64,000 nucleotides of DNA, taken from NCBI GenBank assembly GCA_013697245.1, contig JACCXH010000001.1, positions 62,001 through 126,000 of the forward strand. Reading direction: 5' to 3'. The notes under the pieces are model-generated. The model made no database searches, was not told the origin of the DNA, and saw only the letters and a program-made list of their open reading frames with translations. The translations under genes and the position numbers were made by a program. Positions 22,459-54,751 of this stretch are shown piece after piece; the stretch's first letter is position 1, and every line of letters begins with the position of its first letter. This DNA is from Bacteroidota bacterium. GTDB taxonomy: Bacteria; Bacteroidota; Bacteroidia; B-17B0; Aurantibacillaceae.

Positions 22459-24315
22459 TTAACCTATTAATTCTTTTTCAGTGTCCTTTTCAATACGCAA
22501 ATTTTCAATAATAAAGTCCTGCCGGCCTTGCGTATTTTTACCCATATAATAGTTCAGAAGCTCTGTTATACTTGACTTTTGGTCAATTAACACCGGCTCT
22601 AAACGAATGTCTTTTCCTATAAAATGCTTGAATTCGTCCGGTGAGATCTCACCTAAGCCCTTAAATCGGGTAATTTCGGGTTTTGGGCCCAATTTTGCTA
22701 CTGCGGCCTTTCTTTCTTCATCGCTATAACAATAGGCAGTCTCTTTTTTGTTCCTTACCCTAAATAAAGGTGTTTGCAAAATCTTCACATGATTGTTCTT
22801 TACAAGATCAGGAAAGAACTGTAAAAAAAAGGTTAGTAATAATAAACGAATATGCATTCCATCCACATCGGCATCGGTAGCAATAATTACATTATTATAA
22901 CGCAGCTCTTCTAAATTATCTTCAATATTTAAAGCAGCTTGTAATAAATTAAACTCTTCGTTCTCGTAAACCACTTTTTTTCCTAAGCCAAAACAATTCA
23001 AAGGTTTTCCTTTTAAACTAAATACAGCTTGTGTGTTTACATCACGTGTTTTTGTAATAGAACCACTGGCAGAATCTCCCTCACAAATAAAGATAGAAGT
23101 ATCTAAACGTCGTACGTCTTTAGTATCATCCAAGTGTACGCGACAGTCGCGCAATTTTTTATTATGTAAAGAAGATTTTTTAGCGCGCTCTCTGGCTAAT
23201 TTTTGTATTCCTGAAAGCTCTTTACGCTCACGTTCGTTAGCAACAATTTTAGCTTCAATTAATTTTGCAGTTTCCGGATTTTTGTGAAGATAATTATCCA
23301 GATGTTGTTTCATAAAATCTGTAATAAAACTCCTAACACTTTGTCCGCCCGGGGCTATTTCTGATGAACCTAATTTTGTTTTTGTTTGCGATTCAAAAAT
23401 TGGCTCCTGCACTTTTACAGAGATGGCCGCAACAATTGATTTTCTTATATCAGCCGGATCAAATTCTTTTTTGTAGAATTCTCTAATGGTCTTTACTAAA
23501 GCCTCTCTGAATGCGGCTTGATGTGTACCGCCCTGAGTGGTGTATTGTCCGTTAACGTAACTGTAATATTCTTCACTGTAATGCTCGTTGCTATGAGTCA
23601 TTGCTAACTCAATATCTTCAGCCCTTAAGTGAATAATAGGATAAATAATTTCGCCGGTAATATTTTTTTCTAAAAGATCCTTTAAGCCATTATCGGATTT
23701 ATATTCTGCGCCGTTTAAATATAATTTTAACCCGGTATTCAAGAACGCATAATTCCACACCATCTTATCAATGTACTCATGTACAAAGTGGTATTTTTTA
23801 AAGATGGTATCATCCGGACGAAACTCAACAAGCGTTCCGTTTTTTTCGCTGGAAGCTGTAAGCTTATGTTCTTTTATTAATTCACCTTTACTAAACTCGG
23901 CTGTTTTTGATTGTCCGTCGCGGTAAGCAGTTACTTTAAAATTAATAGATAATGCATTTACAGCCTTTGTACCAACACCATTTAAACCAATAGATTTTTT
24001 AAAGGCTTCGCTATCGTATTTACCACCGGTATTCATTTTTGAAACAACTTCAACCACTTTTCCCAGAGGAATACCACGGCCAAAATCGCGAATAGAAACA
24101 ACACCTTCTTTTACGTTAATGTCAATTCTGCTTCCTTCACCCATCATAAATTCGTCAATACAATTATCCATTACCTCTTTTAAGAGCACGTAAATACCAT
24201 CGTCAAAAGCGCTACCATCTCCCAATTTGCCAATATACATGCCGGGGCGCGTACGAATGTGTTCTTTCCAGTCTAACGACTTAATATTATCCTCTGTATA
24301 ATTTGATTTTGCCAT
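22459..24315 (-). CDS. parE: DNA topoisomerase IV subunit B
   Basis: [68 protein letters not shown]. Confidence 0.93.
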
Positions 24316-24318
24316 TCC

Positions 24319-24354
24319 AATGTTTCTAGTTTAAGGTTTTTTGTTCCTTGTTAT
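24319..24354. repeat. left inverted-repeat arm of S23 element 1
   Basis: Reverse complement ATAACAAGGAACAAAAAACCTTAAACTAGAAACATT matches 24757-24785 ATAACAAGAAACTAAAAACAAGAAACATT with a 7-nt gap. Confidence 0.7.
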
Positions 24355-24362
24355 TGTATATT

Positions 24363-24758
24363 TTAATCTTTTTTAAATTTATTTCCTTTAAATTCTGTAT
24401 TTCTTAAATAGGCTATGAATTTAGCAATTTTACCAGCTAAAAGTAAACAATCGTTTTGTAAGTTTTCAAATGCTTCTTTATCAAGCATATTTCTATCAAA
24501 CACTCGGTATAATTGTGAACTAACTTCGCCTAATGACCCTTTTGAAATTGCTAAAAATTGAATGAATTCTCTATTTTCGTCTCTTTCAAACCCCTCAGAA
24601 ATATTATCCATTACTGAACCCGCTGAAGAGTCAAGTTGATTTTTTAATTCGTAATTTCTTGTTTCATTTAATATTTGAAGTAGTGGATATATTTTAGCAT
24701 TTAATTGTCTTGCTAATTGCCAGACTTCAAGATCTTCAAATTTTGTAATTGTTGCCAT
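24363..24758 (-). CDS. four-helix bundle protein (23S rRNA IVS / S23 / bAvd-like)
   Basis: KFEDLEVWQLARQL...LKNQLDSSAGSVMDNISEGFERDENREFIQFLAISKGSLGEVSSQLYR. Confidence 0.92.
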   Translation of the reverse strand: MATITKFEDLEVWQLARQLNAKIYPLLQILNETRNYELKNQLDSSAGSVMDNISEGFERDENREFIQFLAISKGSLGEVSSQLYRVFDRNMLDKEAFENLQNDCLLLAGKIAKFIAYLRNTEFKGNKFKKD

Positions 24759-24785: not shown

Positions 24786-25568
24786 CTAATCCCCGTCAAT
24801 TAGATTTCCGAGACCTCCAAGGATAGAGCCCTCTTCTTTTCTTGAGCCGCGGCCGTATGATAAAATTCTTCCCGCTAATCTGCTAATTGGTAATGATTGG
24901 ACCCAAACTTTTCCGGGACCGGTTAAGGTAGCGTAAAACAAACCTTCGCCACCAAAAATAGCATTTTTTACACCTTTCACAAATTGAATGTCGTAGTTTA
25001 CAGTGCCCGTAAAAGCTACAACGCAGCCGGTATCTATTTTTAATCTTTCCCCTGCCTGCAAAGTTTTTTCAACCACATAGCCACCCGAATGTACAAAGGC
25101 CATCCCGTCACCTTCCAACTTTTGCATAATAAATCCTTCGCCACCAAATAAACCTGTACCTAATTTTTTTTGAAACTCAATACCAATTGAAACGCCTTTT
25201 GCTGCGCATAAAAAACTGTCTTTTTGGCAAATGATCTTCTCTCCAAGTTCTTTTAAGTTCATAGGAATAATTTTACCTGTATATGGCCCGGCAAAAGTTA
25301 CCTGTTTTTTTTGCGAAGATGAGTTGGAGTAAACCGTCATAAATAAACTTTCGCCGGTAAGCAAACGTTTACCTGCAGTAAATAATTTATCCATGAAACT
25401 ACTTTGTTGTTTACTTCCATCGCCAAACATTGTTTCCATGTCAATGCCATCCGTCATCATCATAAAACTGCCGGGTTCTGCTATTACTGCTTCCTGTGGA
25501 TCGAGCTCAATTTCTACACATTGTAACTCTTCACCAAATATCTTATAATCTATTTCGTGATTTTTCAT
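24786..25568 (-). CDS. TIGR00266 / AIM24 family protein
   Basis: AVIAEPGSFMMMTDGIDMETMFGDG, GEGFIMQKLEGDGMAFVHSGG, IFGGEGLFYATLTGPGKVWVQSLP. Confidence 0.9.
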   Translation of the reverse strand: MKNHEIDYKIFGEELQCVEIELDPQEAVIAEPGSFMMMTDGIDMETMFGDGSKQQSSFMDKLFTAGKRLLTGESLFMTVYSNSSSQKKQVTFAGPYTGKIIPMNLKELGEKIICQKDSFLCAAKGVSIGIEFQKKLGTGLFGGEGFIMQKLEGDGMAFVHSGGYVVEKTLQAGERLKIDTGCVVAFTGTVNYDIQFVKGVKNAIFGGEGLFYATLTGPGKVWVQSLPISRLAGRILSYGRGSRKEEGSILGGLGNLIDGD

Positions 25569-39860: not shown

Positions 39861-40187
39861 ATGATAACAGTAACAGAAAACGCAAAAAATCATGCCATTG
39901 AATTAATCAAGACAGAAAACCGCCCGGTTGATACATTTATTAGGGTTGGGGTTGATGGGGGAGGATGCTCTGGTTTATCTTACAAATTGGAGTTTGATAA
40001 CCAGCTAAAAGAAGGCGACCAGATGTTTGAAGATAAAGGTGTAAAAATTGTAGTGGATAGAAAGAGTTTTCTTTACCTGATAGGTACTGAATTAGAATAT
40101 ACCGGAGGCCTTAATGGTAAAGGTTTTATATTTAATAATCCAAATGCTAACCGCACCTGCGGCTGTGGTGAATCATTTTCGGTTTAA
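39861..40187 (+). CDS. sufA: A-type iron-sulfur carrier / assembly accessory protein
   Basis: GVDGGGCSGLSYKLEF and CGCGESFSV (three conserved Cys). Confidence 0.92.
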   Translation: MITVTENAKNHAIELIKTENRPVDTFIRVGVDGGGCSGLSYKLEFDNQLKEGDQMFEDKGVKIVVDRKSFLYLIGTELEYTGGLNGKGFIFNNPNANRTCGCGESFSV

Positions 40188-40213
40188 AGTTCAAGATAGA
40201 AAATTTAAAGTTC
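40182..40213. repeat. left inverted-repeat arm of S23 element 2
   Basis: GTTTAAAGTTCAAGATAGAAAATTTAAAGTTC versus reverse complement of 40626-40657 GTTTAAAATTAAAGGTTCAAAATTTAAAATTC, 26/32. Confidence 0.75.
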
Positions 40214-40226
40214 GAAAAAGCAAGAA

Positions 40227-40625
40227 ATGGGAACAGCAAAAAAATTTGAAGACCTGGAAGTGTGGATTGCCACAAAAGATTTTTGCGTAAATATTTATAA
40301 GATCACTGAAAATGAATTTTTGAAAAAAGATTTTGGACTTAAAGATCAAATTAGAAGAGCTTCAATCTCAATATTATCAAATATTGCGGAAGGTTTTGAA
40401 AGAAATGGTAATAAAGAATTTATTCAATTTTTGAGCTATTCAAAAGGCTCGGCTGGCGAGGTAAGAGCGCAGTTGCATATAATTAAAGAACTGGATTTTA
40501 TAACAGATAAAGAGTTTATAGAGTTGAATGATAAAATTACCCAGATAAGCAAAATGCTTTCTGGCTTTATTAATTACTTAAAACAATCAGATCTAAAAGG
40601 AACAAAATATAAAATTGAGAATTAA
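40227..40625 (+). CDS. four-helix bundle protein (23S rRNA IVS / S23 / bAvd-like)
   Basis: KKFEDLEVWIATKDF...LKDQIRRASISILSNIAEGFERNGNKEFIQFLSYSKGSAGEVRAQLHI. Confidence 0.93.
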   Translation: MGTAKKFEDLEVWIATKDFCVNIYKITENEFLKKDFGLKDQIRRASISILSNIAEGFERNGNKEFIQFLSYSKGSAGEVRAQLHIIKELDFITDKEFIELNDKITQISKMLSGFINYLKQSDLKGTKYKIEN

Positions 40626-40657
40626 GAATTTTAAATTTTGAACCTTTAATTTTAAAC
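40626..40657. repeat. right inverted-repeat arm of S23 element 2
   Basis: See 40182-40213. Confidence 0.75.
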
Positions 40658-40664
40658 TAATATA

Positions 40665-42119
40665 ATGGCAAACGAGATCTTACAGGAACATATTAATAAG
40701 GATTACGAATTTGGCTTTACTACCAATATTGATTCTGATACTTTTGCGCCTGGTTTAAACGAAGAGGTTGTAACAGCACTCAGTAAAAAGAAAAATGAAC
40801 CAGAGTGGCTACTTGAGTTTAGACTAAAAGCTTTTCGCCATTGGCAAACCTTGGCTGAGCCAAGCAATTGGGCACATTTAAATTATCCAAAAATAGATTT
40901 TCAAAATATCAGTTATTATTCTGCGCCAAAAGTTAAACCCGAATTAAAAAGTTTGGATGAAGTTGATCCGGAACTTTTAAAAACCTTTGCAAAGTTGGGC
41001 ATCTCTCTCGAAGAACAAAAACGTTTAAGTGGTGTACAATCAAACATAGCAGTTGACGCGGTTTTTGACAGCGTATCTGTTAAAACAACTTTTAGAGAAA
41101 CCCTTTCTGAGAAAGGAATTATTTTTTGTTCTTTCAGCGAAGCTGTTCAGGAATTTCCAGACCTTATTAAAAAATATATGGGTACCGTTGTTCCTTATAC
41201 AGATAATTATTTTGCCGCACTTAATAGTGCTGTATATAGCGATGGCTCTTTTTGCTACATACCCAAAGGCGTTAGATGCCCTATGGAGCTTTCTACTTAT
41301 TTTCGGATTAACGCAACAGGTACCGGTCAGTTTGAGCGCACATTGATCGTTGCTGACGAAGGAAGTTACGTTTCTTACCTGGAAGGTTGTACTGCGCCGC
41401 AGCGCGACGAGAACCAATTACACGCGGCAATTGTTGAAATTATAGCGCATAAGAATGCGGAAGTAAAATACAGCACAGTTCAAAACTGGTACCCCGGTGA
41501 TAAGAATGGAAAAGGCGGCATTTTTAATTTTGTTACCAAGCGCGGTATTTGTTTAGAAGATAATTCAAAGATCAGCTGGACACAAGTTGAAACCGGTTCG
41601 GCCATTACCTGGAAATACCCATCTGTAATTTTAAAAGGGAATAATAGTGTTGGCGAATTTTATTCGGTGGCTTTAACCAATAATCGGCAGGAAGCGGATA
41701 CGGGTACAAAAATGATCCACATCGGAAAAAATACCAGGAGCACAATTATTTCGAAAGGAATAAGTGCTGGCTTTAGTAATAATAGTTATCGCGGCTTAGT
41801 TCAGATCCGCAAGGGAGCTACCAACTCACGTAATTTTTCGCAATGCGATAGTTTATTAATGGGCGATAAATGTGGCGCACATACTTTTCCATACATAGAA
41901 ATTAAAGATAAAACGGCGGTTGTTGAACATGAGGCCACAACAAGCAAAATTGGTGAGGACCAACTTTTCTATTGTAAACAACGCGGTATTGATAATGAAA
42001 AAGCAATTGGTTTAATTGTAAATGGTTATTGCAAAGAGGTTTTAAACAAACTTCCGATGGAATTTGCAGTTGAAGCCCAAAAATTATTAGCTGTAAGCTT
42101 AGAAGGCAGCGTGGGATAG
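40665..42119 (+). CDS. sufB: Fe-S cluster assembly protein SufB
   Basis: [70 protein letters not shown]. Confidence 0.96.
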
Positions 42120-42129
42120 TATTTAAATT

Positions 42130-43842
42130 TTGAATTCATTCGTAAAAAATAATTATTTAGATCTTGTTATAGCATTTTGTGTTGTTGTACTTTTTTCTGT
42201 TGTATTTAGTTTTGACAGAAAAATTTCAATTGATGGCGATGCAAAAGATTATTATTCTTATTTGGTTTCATTTTTTATAGATCATAATTTTACACACCAA
42301 ACCGGCAATAGCTGGTACCTTTTAGAAACCCCAACGGGTATAATTAATGTGCATACAATTGGTGTTTCCTTATTAATGGCCCCTTTCTTTTTCCTGGCGC
42401 TTCTTTCTGCCAAAATATTTGATTTCGACATGAATGGTTTTTCTTTACCATTTCAAATGGGAGTTTATTGTGCCGGTATTTTTTATTGCACAATTGGTTT
42501 GATCTTTATTAAGAAATTGTTGCTTCAACTAAATATCCATAAAGGTTATGTTGCAGCTCTTATTATTTTAAGTTGTTTAGGCACCCATTTATTCAGCTAC
42601 ACCGTTAATGAGCCTGGTATGGCCCATGTTTATGCCTTTGCATTAACAAGCATGTTCTTTTATTTTATTTTAAACCTGTTTCAAAAAAGAAAAGCAAAAT
42701 ATTTTTACTTAAGCGCTATTGTTTTAGGTTTAATTATTTTGGTACGGCCGGTAAATATTATTTTATTAACCTTTATTCCTTTCTTTTTTCAGAATAAATA
42801 CGATCTTATTAGTACGTCAAAAGTGATCTTACGTACAAAACATTTTTATCTCTCAATAATTGCCCTTTTTTTAATTTGTTCTATTCAAAGTATCGCCTGG
42901 TATGCGCAAAACGGCAAACTTATTCAGGATTCGTACGTCGGAAATGGATTTTATTTTAATCATCCTCAAATTTTAAAAATGTTATTTGGCTTTAATAATG
43001 GTTTATTTATTTATGTGCCCCTTTGTTTTTTATCGCTTTTCGGTATAATTCCCATGTTTGTAATTAATAGGTTTAAAGGTTTTGTATTTGTTGTATCACT
43101 GGCACTTATCATTTATGTATTTGCTTCGTATTGGGCCTACAATTATTTTGATGGTTTTGGAATAAGAACGTTTGTGGATTTTTTACCAATGTTCATCATC
43201 GCGGGCGCTTATATGCTCCAGAATTTTAAACCTAAATTAAAATATGCCGTAAGCGGAATAGCTTTGCTTTTTTCGGCACTAAACCTCTTTTACATTTATC
43301 AATATCGTAGCGGAATTATTAAAGGCAATGGCATGAATTTTGAAAAGTATAGTTACATTTTCTTAAAAGGCAATAAAGCTTATGCCGATAGTTTAGGTGG
43401 AAGTAACGACCTGCCTCTTTACTCTAAAAAAAACCCACCTCTTGTTTTTGAAAATAAAATGGAGAATAAAGAAGTTGACGTACAAAACAACGACACCACT
43501 ATTATATTTAATTACAATATAAATACCAAACGTTCCAATGGCTTTTATACTTTAATAGAATTTGAAAGGAAGGAATTAAATTTAAATTCTTCTTTCAGAA
43601 GTTTTGTTGTTCTTAATGCAACGGATTCTATAGGCACTCGAAAGAATTACCAGTCTTTTCGTTTAAATGAAATACCGTCAGAAACTTGCTGCGATTGGAA
43701 AAAATATTCCTATTCCATTGCATCAACCGGTAAATTTATGAAGGATGATAAATTAAGTTTAATGATCTTAAATCCTGACAGAATGCCTTTTTTTATTAAA
43801 AATTTTAATGTAAAAATATTTGATTACAGCAATAATATTTAA
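42130..43842 (+). CDS. GT-C-like multi-pass membrane protein of unknown function (TTG start)
   Basis: About 10 hydrophobic segments; SFDRKISIDGDAKDYYSYLVSFFIDHNFT resembles the first periplasmic loop of GT-C proteins; lies inside the suf gene string. Confidence 0.7.
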   Translation: MNSFVKNNYLDLVIAFCVVVLFSVVFSFDRKISIDGDAKDYYSYLVSFFIDHNFTHQTGNSWYLLETPTGIINVHTIGVSLLMAPFFFLALLSAKIFDFDMNGFSLPFQMGVYCAGIFYCTIGLIFIKKLLLQLNIHKGYVAALIILSCLGTHLFSYTVNEPGMAHVYAFALTSMFFYFILNLFQKRKAKYFYLSAIVLGLIILVRPVNIILLTFIPFFFQNKYDLISTSKVILRTKHFYLSIIALFLICSIQSIAWYAQNGKLIQDSYVGNGFYFNHPQILKMLFGFNNGLFIYVPLCFLSLFGIIPMFVINRFKGFVFVVSLALIIYVFASYWAYNYFDGFGIRTFVDFLPMFIIAGAYMLQNFKPKLKYAVSGIALLFSALNLFYIYQYRSGIIKGNGMNFEKYSYIFLKGNKAYADSLGGSNDLPLYSKKNPPLVFENKMENKEVDVQNNDTTIIFNYNINTKRSNGFYTLIEFERKELNLNSSFRSFVVLNATDSIGTRKNYQSFRLNEIPSETCCDWKKYSYSIASTGKFMKDDKLSLMILNPDRMPFFIKNFNVKIFDYSNNI

Positions 43843-47140: not shown

Positions 47141-47557
47141 ATGAGTATAGAGGAAATAGAAAAAGAAATAATTGAAGAGTTTGAGATCTTTGGTGATGAT
47201 TGGGAAGGTAAGTACGAGCACTTAATTGATCTTGGAAAATCACTTCCAATAATTAAAGAAGAATTGAAAACAGAAGATAGAATTATAAAAGGATGCCAGA
47301 GCAGGGTATGGTTAAATTCTGAATTAAAAGATGGTAAGATAATTTATACAGCAGATGCGGATGCAATTATAACTAAAGGTATGGTTGCATTAATGGTAAG
47401 AGTTTTATCAGGGCATAAGCCGGAAGAAATTATAAAAGCAGACCTGAAATTTGTTGATGAAATAGGATTAAAAGAACATTTAAGTCCAACACGGGCAAAT
47501 GGATTGGTAAGCATGATCAATAAAATGAAAACAGATGCACTAACGTTAAGTCGATAG
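47141..47557 (+). CDS. sufE: SufE family sulfur acceptor
   Basis: KYEHLIDLGKSLP, RIIKGCQSRVWL. Confidence 0.94.
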   Translation: MSIEEIEKEIIEEFEIFGDDWEGKYEHLIDLGKSLPIIKEELKTEDRIIKGCQSRVWLNSELKDGKIIYTADADAIITKGMVALMVRVLSGHKPEEIIKADLKFVDEIGLKEHLSPTRANGLVSMINKMKTDALTLSR

Positions 47558-47581
47558 AGTTTAGTCTTTAGAAGATAGTCC
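47546..47581. repeat. left inverted-repeat arm of S23 element 3
   Basis: TTAAGTCG(atagag)TTTAGTCTTTAGAAGATAGTCC versus reverse complement of 47976-48004 TTAAGTTGTTAGTCGTTAGATTTTAATCC; best block 16/21. Confidence 0.6.
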
Positions 47582-47603
47582 AGTATAGATAAAAAAAGTA
47601 AAA

Positions 47604-47966
47604 ATGACTGCATTTAAAAGTTTTGAAGAAATAATTTCTTGGCAAAAAGCGAGAGTTTTGTGTAAGGAGATCTATGTTCTTTCTTCAAACAATAAATTTG
47701 CAAAAGATTTTGGGCTGAGAGATCAAATTAGAAGAAGCGCAGTTTCTGTCATGGCGAATATCGCCGAAGGCTATGAAAGAAAATCCGATGGGGATTTTAA
47801 GCGATTTTTGAATATTTCAAAAGGCTCTTTGGCTGAAGTAAAGTCTCATTTGTACATTGCTTTAGACCTAGAATATATCACAGACGATAAGTTTAAAAAA
47901 TTAGCATCTGAAATAGATGAAATTAATAAAACATTGTACGGATTAATAAATTATTTAAAACAGTAA
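47604..47966 (+). CDS. four-helix bundle protein (23S rRNA IVS / S23 / bAvd-like)
   Basis: SFEEIISWQKARVL...LRDQIRRSAVSVMANIAEGYERKSDGDFKRFLNISKGSLAEVKSHLYI. Confidence 0.93.
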   Translation: MTAFKSFEEIISWQKARVLCKEIYVLSSNNKFAKDFGLRDQIRRSAVSVMANIAEGYERKSDGDFKRFLNISKGSLAEVKSHLYIALDLEYITDDKFKKLASEIDEINKTLYGLINYLKQ

Positions 47967-47975
47967 ATTAGCTTA

Positions 47976-48004
47976 GGATTAAAATCTAACGACTAACAAC
48001 TTAA
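47976..48004. repeat. right inverted-repeat arm of S23 element 3
   Basis: See 47546-47581. Confidence 0.6.
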
Positions 48005-48017
48005 GACTGACAGAAAA

Positions 48018-48347
48018 ATGAGTGCAATAATAGTTACAAAAAATACAGAATTAATGCAACGCATTATCGAAGAGATCAAAACCTGTTTCGATCCTGAGAT
48101 CCCTGTGGATGTTTGGGAACTGGGTTTAATTTACGAACTGCATTTGGATGAGGAGGATAATTTAAAGATTGTGATGACACTAACATCACCAAACTGCCCG
48201 GTAGCAGAGAGCTTGCCGGCTGAGGTAGAAAATAAATGTAAATTAGTGGCCGGTGTAAAGTCGGTTGAATTAAAATTAACCTTTGAGCCAACCTGGGAAA
48301 AAGAAATGATGAGCGAAGTTGCCCAATTGGAATTAGGATTTATGTAA
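48018..48347 (+). CDS. MIP18/DUF59 family Fe-S assembly protein (SufT-like)
   Basis: IKTCFDPEIPVDVWELGLIYELHLDEEDNLKIVMTLTSPNCPVAESLPAEVENK. Confidence 0.93.
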   Translation: MSAIIVTKNTELMQRIIEEIKTCFDPEIPVDVWELGLIYELHLDEEDNLKIVMTLTSPNCPVAESLPAEVENKCKLVAGVKSVELKLTFEPTWEKEMMSEVAQLELGFM

Positions 48348-51310: not shown

Positions 51311-51333
51311 TCTAAATATTTTAGTTACAAAAA

Positions 51334-51403
51334 TTAACCACTAAGAACAAAAGAAAATTAGAGCATTGTGTGCTTGGTGCTTTCTTTTGTGCTTGGTGGT
51401 TAA
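51334..51403. repeat. intergenic palindrome, 'TTAACCACTAAGAACAAAAGAAA' family
   Basis: ttaaccactaagaacaaaagaaa ... tttcttttgtgcttggtggttaa; 21/23 complementary. Confidence 0.85.
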
Positions 51404-51407
51404 AAGA

Positions 51408-54400
51408 TTATTGCATCTGCGGCAATTGTTGCTGTTCTTCCGGCACTAATTCTTCCGGCGGAATAATTGCCGACATACGTTTAATGAAATCTTTAGAAAC
51501 CTCTTCTTGTTTAAATTGTTGCGACATGCCAGCTAATCTTTTTAATAATTCTTTACACTGATTAACTTCTCTGCCAAACGCAATTCTATGTTTAGGTTTT
51601 TGAGCGTTGTATATTTTAAGGTCGCCTTCAAAAATATCAAATAATTTTTTTGCCAGGTCGTTTGCTTTTTTCATTTCGCCAACTTGGTAATAGCCAGCGC
51701 AAATTGTAAAGATGGTTGCATCGTAAGGGATATTCTCATCAGGCATAACTTCCAAACACTTATCTAAAATAGCTTTTGCTTTTTTATTCTTGCCTTCGTT
51801 AATTAATGCGCCGGCCAATACACCCATTTGCATGCGTAAATTACCGGTCATACGTATACAGTTTTCATCTAAATTAATTCCTTTTTTATCCATACCGCCC
51901 CACAAGAATTTATTCATAATGTTGTCATACATGGCATCAGTATTTACACGGCCGCCTTGCGACTCTTCCATTTCAGTTTGGCGTATGGGTACAAACCTGT
52001 AAGCTAATCCTTCCAGTTGAAAGTATTTTTTTAATCCTACATAAGCTTCATCGCCGGTTGTAACGGCAAAATAAATAGGACGATCCCATTTACTGTTCGC
52101 AACAAGATCCAATACCATTAGATCATTTTTAGTGATGTAACTTCTACCACCCATATCCCAACTTATTCTTTTTACTAAGCGCGCTGTATCTTTTACAGCA
52201 ATCACTTTGTTCTTCATGATCCTTAAACTATCTACATTCACGTAAAAGTTTTTTGTAGGGATTACATCAATTAGGTCGCCACCATTATCATACTTGCTTG
52301 CCGGATCATCACTAATGGCTTGCTCTAGCGCTTCTTTTAAATTCATCGGTTTAGAGTTTTGGCCGTTAATAACCAAATATTCTAATTTGGAAGCTTCCAG
52401 TTTTTCTTCAGGAATTGTAAATGGCACCGGTTTGCTATCATATGCAGCCCTGCGCATTTGTTTAATATACCAATCGGTTTGCAATAAACTTAAATTTACT
52501 ACGCGCACATCAGTTCTAATACCTTCAACTTCCTGTGCATACCAAAGTGGGAATGTATCGTTATCACCATTTGTAAATAAGATCGCATTTGGTGCACAGC
52601 TTTGTAAATAATTTATGGCGCAATCGCGCGACATGGTTCTTAAAGAACGGTCGTGGTCATTCCAGCCTTCTTTTGCCATAATGCCCGGAATTACCATGCT
52701 TAAAGCTGTTGAGCCTATGGCCATGCCCATCGTTGCAGCTTTCCTGCTTAAAAGATCATATATGAACAATACACCAAAACCTATCCAAATGGCAAAGGCA
52801 TAAAAACTGCCGGCGTATGCGTAATCACGTTCACGCGGTTGATAAGGTGTTTGATTAAGATAAATTACAATTGCCAAACCTGTAAGTAAAAAGAAACTTA
52901 ATACAATCCAGGCATCGGGCTTATTGCGTTTAAAGTGAAAGAACATTCCCAGCAAACCTAAAATAAATGGTAAAGCATAAAAATGGTTAGCAGCAAAATT
53001 ATTTTTATCGCGGTAGATTTTTTGCGAAGTATCCGTTTCAAGCATAAAGTCATCAAAGCCTTTTATACCGGTAACCCAGTTACCTTCCATGGTATTGCGC
53101 ATTAAACCCTGCACATCATTTTGTCTTCCAATAAAATTCCAGAAAAAATAACGCAGGTACATATACTTAACCTGATAAGCAATAAAATAAGTAAAGTTGG
53201 CACCAAAGGTTGGAATCTCTATGGTAGAGGGCTCTCCATCTCTTCCTTCAACTGTTTTTGTACGGTGATGATCGGCTACATCGCCCCAATATTTGTAAGC
53301 AGATTCGTGATGGCTTTGACTACTCCACATACGCGGAAAAACAGTACAGAATTCTTTTTGATATTTTGGGATCGAATTTTTTCTTGAATCAATGACCTTG
53401 TAATTTTTATTTTTTTCATCCTTGGCAAAAATAGGATCGCCACTACCAAATTCGCTTTTTGAAACTGTTGGTGCATTATAATACTGTCCGTATAAGATCG
53501 GCCAATCACCATATTGCTCACGTAATAAATACGATAACATGTTTGGCGCATTCTCCGGATCGTTCTCATCCATTGGTGTATTTGCCTGCGAACGAATAAC
53601 TAATACAAAGAAAGAAGAGTAACCAATTAATAACGTTGCAAAACTTAAGAACACAGCGTGCAACGTAACGGTTTTTGTTTTAAATTTTTGAATGGCATAA
53701 AGAATTCCGCCAAGAACAAGTAAACGTGTAAACATGCCGCTGCCGCTTGGCGCAGTAAGTATGGCAAATACCGAAAGAATAACACCGGCATAAAAACCTA
53801 TTTTATAATGCTGTTCTTTTTTATTTACAGTATAAAGAATTAAAAAAGTTAGCGATATAATTAAAAGCAAAAAGAAAAAGATGGTGCCGGTGCTAAAGCC
53901 CATGCTCATTTTATTGGTAAAGAAAACTTCGTAGTCACTTACAAATTTTACAACCTTAGGAATGATAAGATTTTGAACAAAACCCAGTACCAAAACAGAA
54001 GAAATGCCGGCTATAAAAAAACCTTTCCAACTGAATGTGTATTTTTTAAAGTAGATCACAAAACCGATCGCAGGAATCACCAATAAGTTTAGTAAATGGA
54101 CACCGATAGAAATACCAACTAAATAACTGATCAAGATCAACCAACGTAAAGCGCTTGTTGGGTTAACAGAATCTTCTTCATCCCATTTTAAAATAGCCCA
54201 AAATACAATAGCTGTAAATAAGGCCGACATAGCGTAAACCTCGCCCTCAACAGCACTAAACCAAAACGAATCAGAAAATGTATAGGCTAATGCACCAACT
54301 ATACCTGCACCTAAAACAGCCCATTGTTGCGGTTTGGCAAGCTCTGCCACTTTTTTACCGTAAACTTTTATAGCTAAACGCGTAATGGTCCAGAATAAAA

Positions 54401-54683
54401 ATAAGATCGTGAATGAGCTGGATAAAGCGCTCATAATGTTTACCATCATGGCCGCATGCGAAGGGTCGCCGCCACCCAATAAAGAGAAAAATCTTCCTAA
54501 AAGCAGGAAGAAAGGAGCTCCCGGAGGGTGCCCTACCTCTAATTTATACGAACAGGCAATGTACTCACCGCAGTCCCAAAAGCTGGCTGTTGGCTCTATT
54601 GTACAGCAATAGGTATACGTGGCAATGGCCCAAACAACCCAGCCAATAATGTTATTTAGTTTTATAAACTCCTTTGTCATCAT
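51408..54683 (-). CDS. DUF2723 family membrane protein (GT-C/PMT-like)
   Basis: EPTASFWDCGEYIACSYKLEVGHPPGAPFFLLLGRFFSL; YQPRERDYAYAGSFYAFAIWIGFG; TNGDNDTFPLWYAQEVEGIRTDVRVVNLSLLQTDWYI. Confidence 0.93.
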   Translation of the reverse strand: MMTKEFIKLNNIIGWVVWAIATYTYCCTIEPTASFWDCGEYIACSYKLEVGHPPGAPFFLLLGRFFSLLGGGDPSHAAMMVNIMSALSSSFTILFLFWTITRLAIKVYGKKVAELAKPQQWAVLGAGIVGALAYTFSDSFWFSAVEGEVYAMSALFTAIVFWAILKWDEEDSVNPTSALRWLILISYLVGISIGVHLLNLLVIPAIGFVIYFKKYTFSWKGFFIAGISSVLVLGFVQNLIIPKVVKFVSDYEVFFTNKMSMGFSTGTIFFFLLLIISLTFLILYTVNKKEQHYKIGFYAGVILSVFAILTAPSGSGMFTRLLVLGGILYAIQKFKTKTVTLHAVFLSFATLLIGYSSFFVLVIRSQANTPMDENDPENAPNMLSYLLREQYGDWPILYGQYYNAPTVSKSEFGSGDPIFAKDEKNKNYKVIDSRKNSIPKYQKEFCTVFPRMWSSQSHHESAYKYWGDVADHHRTKTVEGRDGEPSTIEIPTFGANFTYFIAYQVKYMYLRYFFWNFIGRQNDVQGLMRNTMEGNWVTGIKGFDDFMLETDTSQKIYRDKNNFAANHFYALPFILGLLGMFFHFKRNKPDAWIVLSFFLLTGLAIVIYLNQTPYQPRERDYAYAGSFYAFAIWIGFGVLFIYDLLSRKAATMGMAIGSTALSMVIPGIMAKEGWNDHDRSLRTMSRDCAINYLQSCAPNAILFTNGDNDTFPLWYAQEVEGIRTDVRVVNLSLLQTDWYIKQMRRAAYDSKPVPFTIPEEKLEASKLEYLVINGQNSKPMNLKEALEQAISDDPASKYDNGGDLIDVIPTKNFYVNVDSLRIMKNKVIAVKDTARLVKRISWDMGGRSYITKNDLMVLDLVANSKWDRPIYFAVTTGDEAYVGLKKYFQLEGLAYRFVPIRQTEMEESQGGRVNTDAMYDNIMNKFLWGGMDKKGINLDENCIRMTGNLRMQMGVLAGALINEGKNKKAKAILDKCLEVMPDENIPYDATIFTICAGYYQVGEMKKANDLAKKLFDIFEGDLKIYNAQKPKHRIAFGREVNQCKELLKRLAGMSQQFKQEEVSKDFIKRMSAIIPPEELVPEEQQQLPQMQ

Positions 54684-54751
54684 AGTTAAAATAGTGTTGC
54701 GAAGATAGTATTTTACTTGGTTTATTTTAGAACGTTTTTTTGTAAAAAATA

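Follow-up and report, generated by a model that had tools for sequence, protein, structure and literature searches.

The suf operon in the window analysed here, by which we mean the whole stretch of 64,000 nucleotides, carries an S23 gene between sufE and a sufT-like gene and another between iscA and sufB, and a third copy lies beside parE (Table 1). This raises the question of what kind of element places such genes in the spacers between protein-coding genes, and whether the three copies descend from one another. We consider it rather probable that element 3, at the sufE|sufT junction, belongs to a widespread and probably selfish kind of element that spreads horizontally and in which a single S23 gene lies between inverted arms made of degenerate 7-base repeats (heptads).

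Table 1. Window positions of the S23 elements, their arms and the host genes of element 3
Feature	Position	Strand	Remarks
S23 gene, element 1	24363..24758	-	Between TIGR00266/DUF124-like gene (24786-25568) and parE (22459-24315)
Left arm, element 2	40188..40217	+	AGTTCAAGATAGAAAATTTAAAGTTCGAAA; directly past the iscA stop
S23 gene, element 2	40227..40625	+	PF05635, E 8.1e-37; between iscA (39861-40187) and sufB (40665-42119)
Right arm, element 2	40626..40660	+	Strongest period-7 array of the window at 40604-40659, score 0.658
sufE, upstream host gene	47141..47557	+	PF02657, E 4.4e-44; 3' end overlapped by left arm
Left arm, element 3	47546..47581	+	Degenerate heptads TTAAGTCG ATAGAGT TTAGTCT TTAGAAG ATAGTCC
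S23 gene, element 3	47604..47966	+	120 aa; four-helix-bundle protein of the 23S rRNA-intervening-sequence type
Right arm, element 3	47976..48004	+	Reverse-complement heptads (GGATTAAAATCTAACGACTAACAACTTAA)
sufT-like FeS_assembly_P/SUF_assoc gene, downstream host	48018..48347	+	PF01883, E 2.5e-14; TIGR02945

The S23 protein of element 3 belongs to its family by both curated models, PF05635 (E 9.6e-39, 132.3 bits against a cut-off of 33.8) and TIGR02436 (E 9.9e-39, 131.9 bits against a cut-off of 24), and its homologues with solved structures are 2gsc and 2rld. These matches confirm the S23 element that the earlier note, written from the letters of the sequence, had placed at 47546-48004 between sufE and the sufT-like gene. 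The imperfect inverted arms that it described are real as well: the left arm starts among the final codons of sufE and includes the stop of that gene, and the next start codon follows 13 nt past the end of the right arm. Taken alone, the inverted arms give a modest signal: their local score is 27, dinucleotide shuffles give 17.1 ± 3.2, and P is 0.0115. The note had overlooked that both arms consist of 7-mers in degenerate tandem array, and this period is the stronger signal, with a mean lag-7 match of 0.53 versus 0.28 and none of 2000 shuffles as high (P < 0.0005). The same left arm is present at two other loci (L007 and L009), between which the right arm is near-identical, and relics of it occur at L011 and L031. 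Among the sufE genes of L006-L012, the last residues of SufE read ...LSR, ...FSR or ...LCR where the element is present, being encoded by the left arm (47546-47557), and ...FIK, ...FIS or ...SFS where it is not.

All three elements of the window follow one design, that of inverted heptad arrays, with heptad sequences that differ from element to element. The earlier statement that element 3 has different arms is right as regards sequence. Element 1 bears heptads in both flanks, with a peak at 24316-24371. Period-7 arrays are scarce in the window, and the S23 elements own two of the four strongest. The window also contains an intergenic hairpin at 51320-51402 (TTAACCACTAAGAACAAAAGAAAATTAG...GTGCTTGGTGCTTTCTTTTGTGCTTGGTGGTTAA), whose arms have period 7, and, between sufB and sufC of the suf operon, a 570-aa membrane glycosyltransferase-like gene with a weak PMT_2 match (42130-43842).

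The heptad-arm design is found at many junctions and in many bacteria. S23 genes were located in 40 genomes of the genus, and 97 non-redundant elements were analysed on the basis of draft genomes and simple ORF gene calls. In the 70 nt upstream of these elements the lag-7 match is 0.425 versus 0.315 in shuffles (z 20), and in the 70 nt downstream it is 0.378 versus 0.299 (z 17), with harmonics at lags 14, 21 and 28; at 230-300 nt from the elements period 7 is absent and the coding period 3 alone is left. Other Bacteroidota S23 loci have period-7 flanks too (z 7-19), as do 32 loci from at least six other phyla (z 13-16), among them Acidobacteria, Verrucomicrobia, Nitrospirae, Proteobacteria and Ignavibacteria, and 15 loci on cyanobacterial plasmids (z 11-13), where the tandem units include GGGAGTA, AAAAGCT and GTCAGGA. 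The wider genome scan used a narrower S23 alignment, the nine-row alignment being too diverse, and the FEDLEVW subfamily, to which element 2 belongs, is consequently over-represented in the wider set. Period 7 is the rule and not an absolute one, since a few S23 arms depart from it, such as the upstream flank of L060 with period 9 (GGGACTAAAGGGATTGAA) and L070 with a period of about 6.

The elements lie mostly between genes that run in the same direction as S23 (87 of 95 in the genus and 92 of 105 in the wider set), and in the genus the typical distance to each neighbouring gene is about 40 nt. Recurring junctions are pdhB|pdhC, miaB|sigma54 regulator, parE, sdhA|sdhB and nuo, several of these names having been read from protein ends. 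Most prominent in the data set are five junctions of the suf operon, which are also occupied in Flavobacteriaceae, Cyclobacteriaceae and Chitinophagaceae. The suf share is higher than it should be, because an S23 from a suf operon served as the reference when the wider set was ranked by similarity.

Arm sequence varies between elements of the genus, even at one site, and complementarity is kept despite the change: an element's own pair of arms is more complementary than mismatched partners from the same site (z 8, with the miaB group counted as 14 where it is really 13, L062 being no miaB-site element). This pattern bears on whether the element is a transposon of the conventional kind, or a MITE, whose terminal inverted repeats a transposase recognises in sequence. 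Inverted arms, dispersed copies and presence/absence polymorphism would all fit such an element, but the arms of related same-site S23 genes differ, so that the terminal inverted repeats conserved throughout a DNA transposon or MITE family are not found, and junction fidelity is strong. Moreover, profile searches with the S23 protein returned no transposase, reverse transcriptase or nuclease domain, and no target-site duplication is definable, the empty sites being too diverged. We regard a conventional transposon as very improbable. The same two observations, a protein lacking all three of these domains and the want of a definable target-site duplication, also count against the selfish reading. 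Neither the PADLOC anti-phage models nor phage records gave a match.

Two comparisons address the level at which the arms are maintained. A wobble test for selection on the sense-strand RNA gave 233 G-U against 235 A-C mismatches, that is, no G-U excess. Sense duplexes appeared more stable than antisense ones, but swapped arms gave an equal difference, which is thus compositional. From the null wobble test we tentatively favour a process that acts on DNA, for example copying templated by a hairpin.

At the sufE|sufT junction the element shows presence/absence polymorphism with scars. Within the genus and among its nearest relatives, 30 genomes were compared: six have S23 there, and a gap that is empty measures 1-28 nt. 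Others keep remnants, namely arms together with a degraded S23 C-terminus in L031, one arm by itself in L011, and hairpin-only forms (L027; 69 nt in G041). In G035 and G010 (L013, L015) the junction holds two other repeat families, of the CACATAGG/ATGTATCTATGTGG type and the GCGCCAGGGATGGAGCGGC...GGAATAACAAAAAGAGC type.

The association between S23 and heptads is strong without being exclusive. Heptads occur at 130 of 207 S23 elements and in 19 of 75 other operon spacers, a 2.5-fold difference in frequency, the controls being operon spacers of the same loci with all S23 neighbourhoods excluded and hence drawn from near S23 loci. As 19 of these S23-free spacers carry heptads, S23 is not required for the arms. 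Several of them are short heptad hairpins, and such S23-free hairpins are dispersed after stop codons in the relatives G019 and G026; in G000 a simple hairpin test found few in 400 kb, so they are not abundant there. Two further nuo junctions of G000 (C23, ~53520-53590 and ~54670-54745; L278) bear S23-free heptad hairpins, and the same nuo operon has an S23 element at nuoD|nuoE.

Hairpins of this sort suit a different order of events, in which STRR-like heptad hairpins came first, through a process of the host such as slippage and template switching, and S23 invaded them later, as homing-endonuclease genes invade introns. The dispersed hairpins near S23 loci and in G019 and G026 agree with it, as does the hairpin-only form in G041, and 7-nt-repeat hairpins without S23 are described for the Nostoc trnL P6b stem and for STRRs (PMC4476775, PMC2670836). 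On the other hand, heptads are markedly commoner at S23 genes than in other spacers, and some of the sufE|sufT forms are clear relics of an S23 element, as the C-terminus in L031 attests. We judge this order of events unlikely. It overlaps the explanation preferred here, from which it differs in which part arose first.

As to the origin of the three copies, the earlier note argued against simple tandem duplication and proposed a phylogeny of the S23 proteins as the check. In trees built on about 130 columns, the three proteins of the window fall in three separate clades. Their mutual identities are 46% (elements 3 and 2), 37% (3 and 1) and 38% (1 and 2), whereas the closest match of each is the homologue at its own site in another species, with 92-95% identity: 94% for element 3, to the same-junction S23 in two other species, 92% for element 2 and 95% for element 1. 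Tandem duplication within one genome, an idea that two S23 genes in the same operon might invite, is refuted by these trees and retains next to no chance of being correct. The argument has been borne out. Because arms turn over fast even at one site, their difference alone is weak evidence.

Junctions are mostly kept, yet they have repeatedly been reoccupied. Site predicts S23 clade, with 16 changes versus 57.7 when labels are shuffled, so that vertical descent or homologous recombination accounts for much of the inheritance, true transposition being rare. Nevertheless, the well-supported part of the trees requires a minimum of 4 label changes at sufE|sufT, 4 at iscA|sufB and 5 at sufB|sufC, in a count that may score one gain followed by losses repeatedly. 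These changes indicate that several S23 lineages have held sufE|sufT and that junctions were occupied anew. The earlier proposal had been repeated targeting, or else tolerance, of transcribed spacers; repeated occupation stands, and either targeting or tolerance may lie behind it. The S23 of element 3 has its sister at sufS|sufE, and a further pair from sufE|sufT has its sister at sufB|sufC, relations that suggest hops between neighbouring junctions. In homologous clusters of the Nostoc plasmids pNsp_c and pC052_D (L284, L285), S23 lies after the WP_104899637 gene on one plasmid and before it on the other, an apparent hop by one junction.

Horizontal transfer at an unchanged junction is observed at sufE|sufT. 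Between G021 and G012, dS (by NG86, which is rough near saturation, some pairs being saturated at synonymous sites) is 0.17 for S23 and 1.40, 1.67, 0.67 and 1.44 for sufS, sufE, sufT and DUF2480, respectively. Two sister species that join G021 with 100% bootstrap, G006 and G019, are without S23, one having an empty site and the other an arm-only scar. The low dS of S23 relative to its flanks, together with its absence from the sisters of G021, leads to the conclusion of transfer. The tract of high identity between G021 and G012 covers the inner left arm, S23 and the right arm and grades into sufT; same-junction transfer can also run by homologous recombination through the flanking genes. A miaB-site outlier has an S23 dS of 0.06 against 0.68 and 0.44 in its flanks, and at the parE site window element 1 and G026 differ by 0.29 in S23 against 1.58 and 0.68, so that the S23 of element 1 is, to judge from these values, horizontally transferred relative to G026. 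These are outliers, for in 254 of 280 pairs the flanks are better conserved than S23.

The S23 gene is under purifying selection, with dN/dS of 0.03-0.19 in usable estimates and 0.03-0.08 among the sufE|sufT orthologues. Strong constraint combined with easy loss, regain and scars is probably the trace expected of a selfish element, the alternative being a dispensable host function; strong purifying selection by itself could equally reflect a host function. An alternative would be a domesticated regulatory module, whose arms form an mRNA hairpin that serves as an RNase III site or as a stability or translation-coupling element, and in which the host uses S23 to bind RNA and so to tune the operon. 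Co-directional placement, paired arms and purifying selection would be in keeping with such a module; RNase III cuts the hairpins of rRNA intervening sequences (PMC4990558), and STRR hairpins were proposed to act on transcript stability or coupling (PMC2670836). However, the element is sporadic among close relatives at one junction, with the very short empty gaps given above, S23 is transferred horizontally, and the mismatch counts and swapped arms give no sign of selection on a sense RNA. A regulatory module thus appears quite unlikely to be the explanation.

Under the selfish-element explanation that we prefer, the role of S23 and the mechanism of movement are inferred from sequence patterns. 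The S23 gene occupies the loop between two inverted heptad arms, and the element is placed in the stop-to-start gap of a same-strand pair of operon genes, a position in which insertion would be tolerated and co-expression of S23 possible. An S23 oligomer may recognise the paired arms through their shape and period rather than their sequence. S23 relatives with solved structure include a homopentamer of four-helix bundles (PMC4990558), and contact based on shape or period would explain why arm sequence drifts while pairing and period are kept. Such recognition may aid the persistence or spread of the element. Spread at the same junction would proceed at least partly by recombination through flanking genes, which supply the homology, so that no enzyme is required; hops do require one, and rare events may carry S23 from one junction to others nearby in its operon. 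Loss of the S23 gene would leave the arms behind as hairpins.

By analogy, element 3 is probably the operon counterpart of rRNA intervening sequences and would work like them, in protein operons. The intervening sequences of Leptospira, Coxiella and CPR bacteria likewise lie in transcribed DNA and have complementary arms on either side of an S23/IVP ORF. Those with an S23 ORF are sporadic and thought to be horizontally acquired, and in Coxiella tandem GACAGAT heptamers precede the S23 start (PMC4990558); in CPR bacteria, IVP ORFs lie in rRNA inserts (PMC11270868). Element 3 shares their stem-forming complementary borders (P = 0.0115; group test, z 8). It is set apart by its location between protein genes of an operon, by heptad arrays on both sides, by several copies per genome and by recurring junctions. 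Lying between sufE and the sufT-like gene, in a window in which no rRNA family is found, it is not itself an rRNA intervening sequence.

Similar comparisons can be made with repeats of other bacteria. Cyanobacterial STRRs are usually 7-bp tandem repeats able to form intergenic hairpins (PMC2670836), and the Nostoc trnL P6b stem keeps its structure when its 7-nt repeats give way to those of another class (PMC4476775). Element 3 also has tandem repeats of ~7 bp in intergenic hairpins, a likeness of form, and S23 genes of cyanobacterial plasmids are flanked by 7-nt tandem repeats. The portions cited describe STRRs and P6b without a link to S23 genes, and a literature search outside which many journals lay gave no connection of either with S23; nor did the search, with subscription papers mostly beyond it, give any account of S23 genes outside rRNA that are flanked by heptad arms. 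The TAACTGA arrays found in Beggiatoaceae, Cyanobacteria and Bacteroidetes are likewise intergenic 7-mers, mostly near start codons; some close relatives have shorter spacers that lack them, and a regulatory role was proposed for them in a paper that does not mention S23 (PMC4679880). The bAvd/Avd accessory protein of diversity-generating retroelements is a distant relative of S23. An assignment of element 3 to that family was rejected, with 24.9 bits (E 2.9e-5) for bAvd against a cut-off of 40 and 19.8 for Avd against 80, suf genes as neighbours and no reverse transcriptase identified among them. REPIN/RAYT and other pairs of autonomous and non-autonomous families also comprise hairpins with and without a linked protein gene, but S23 elements are without a RAYT-type transposase and their arm sequence is not conserved.

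The S23/IVP proteins have been on record since the early 1990s and, to our knowledge, have no assigned function, and we know of no explanation for the intergenic heptamer repeats described in bacteria. Heptad-framed, travelling S23 genes outside rRNA in many phyla link these two old puzzles and make both testable. A broader proposal is that S23 and inverted heptad arrays constitute one phylum-spanning class of minimal selfish elements, with S23 as the sole encoded factor recognising hairpins by their 7-base period, and that rRNA intervening sequences, STRR hairpins and the Nostoc P6b stem are special or decayed cases of it. This generalisation is a tentative one, and we rather doubt that it holds in full. 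If true, these would be among the smallest selfish elements known, with recognition by period and pairing instead of sequence. On the cyanobacterial plasmids, S23 genes with heptad arms also occur within CRISPR-cas operons, twice at cas6|cas4 and once at cas10|cmr3 (L289, L293, L297).
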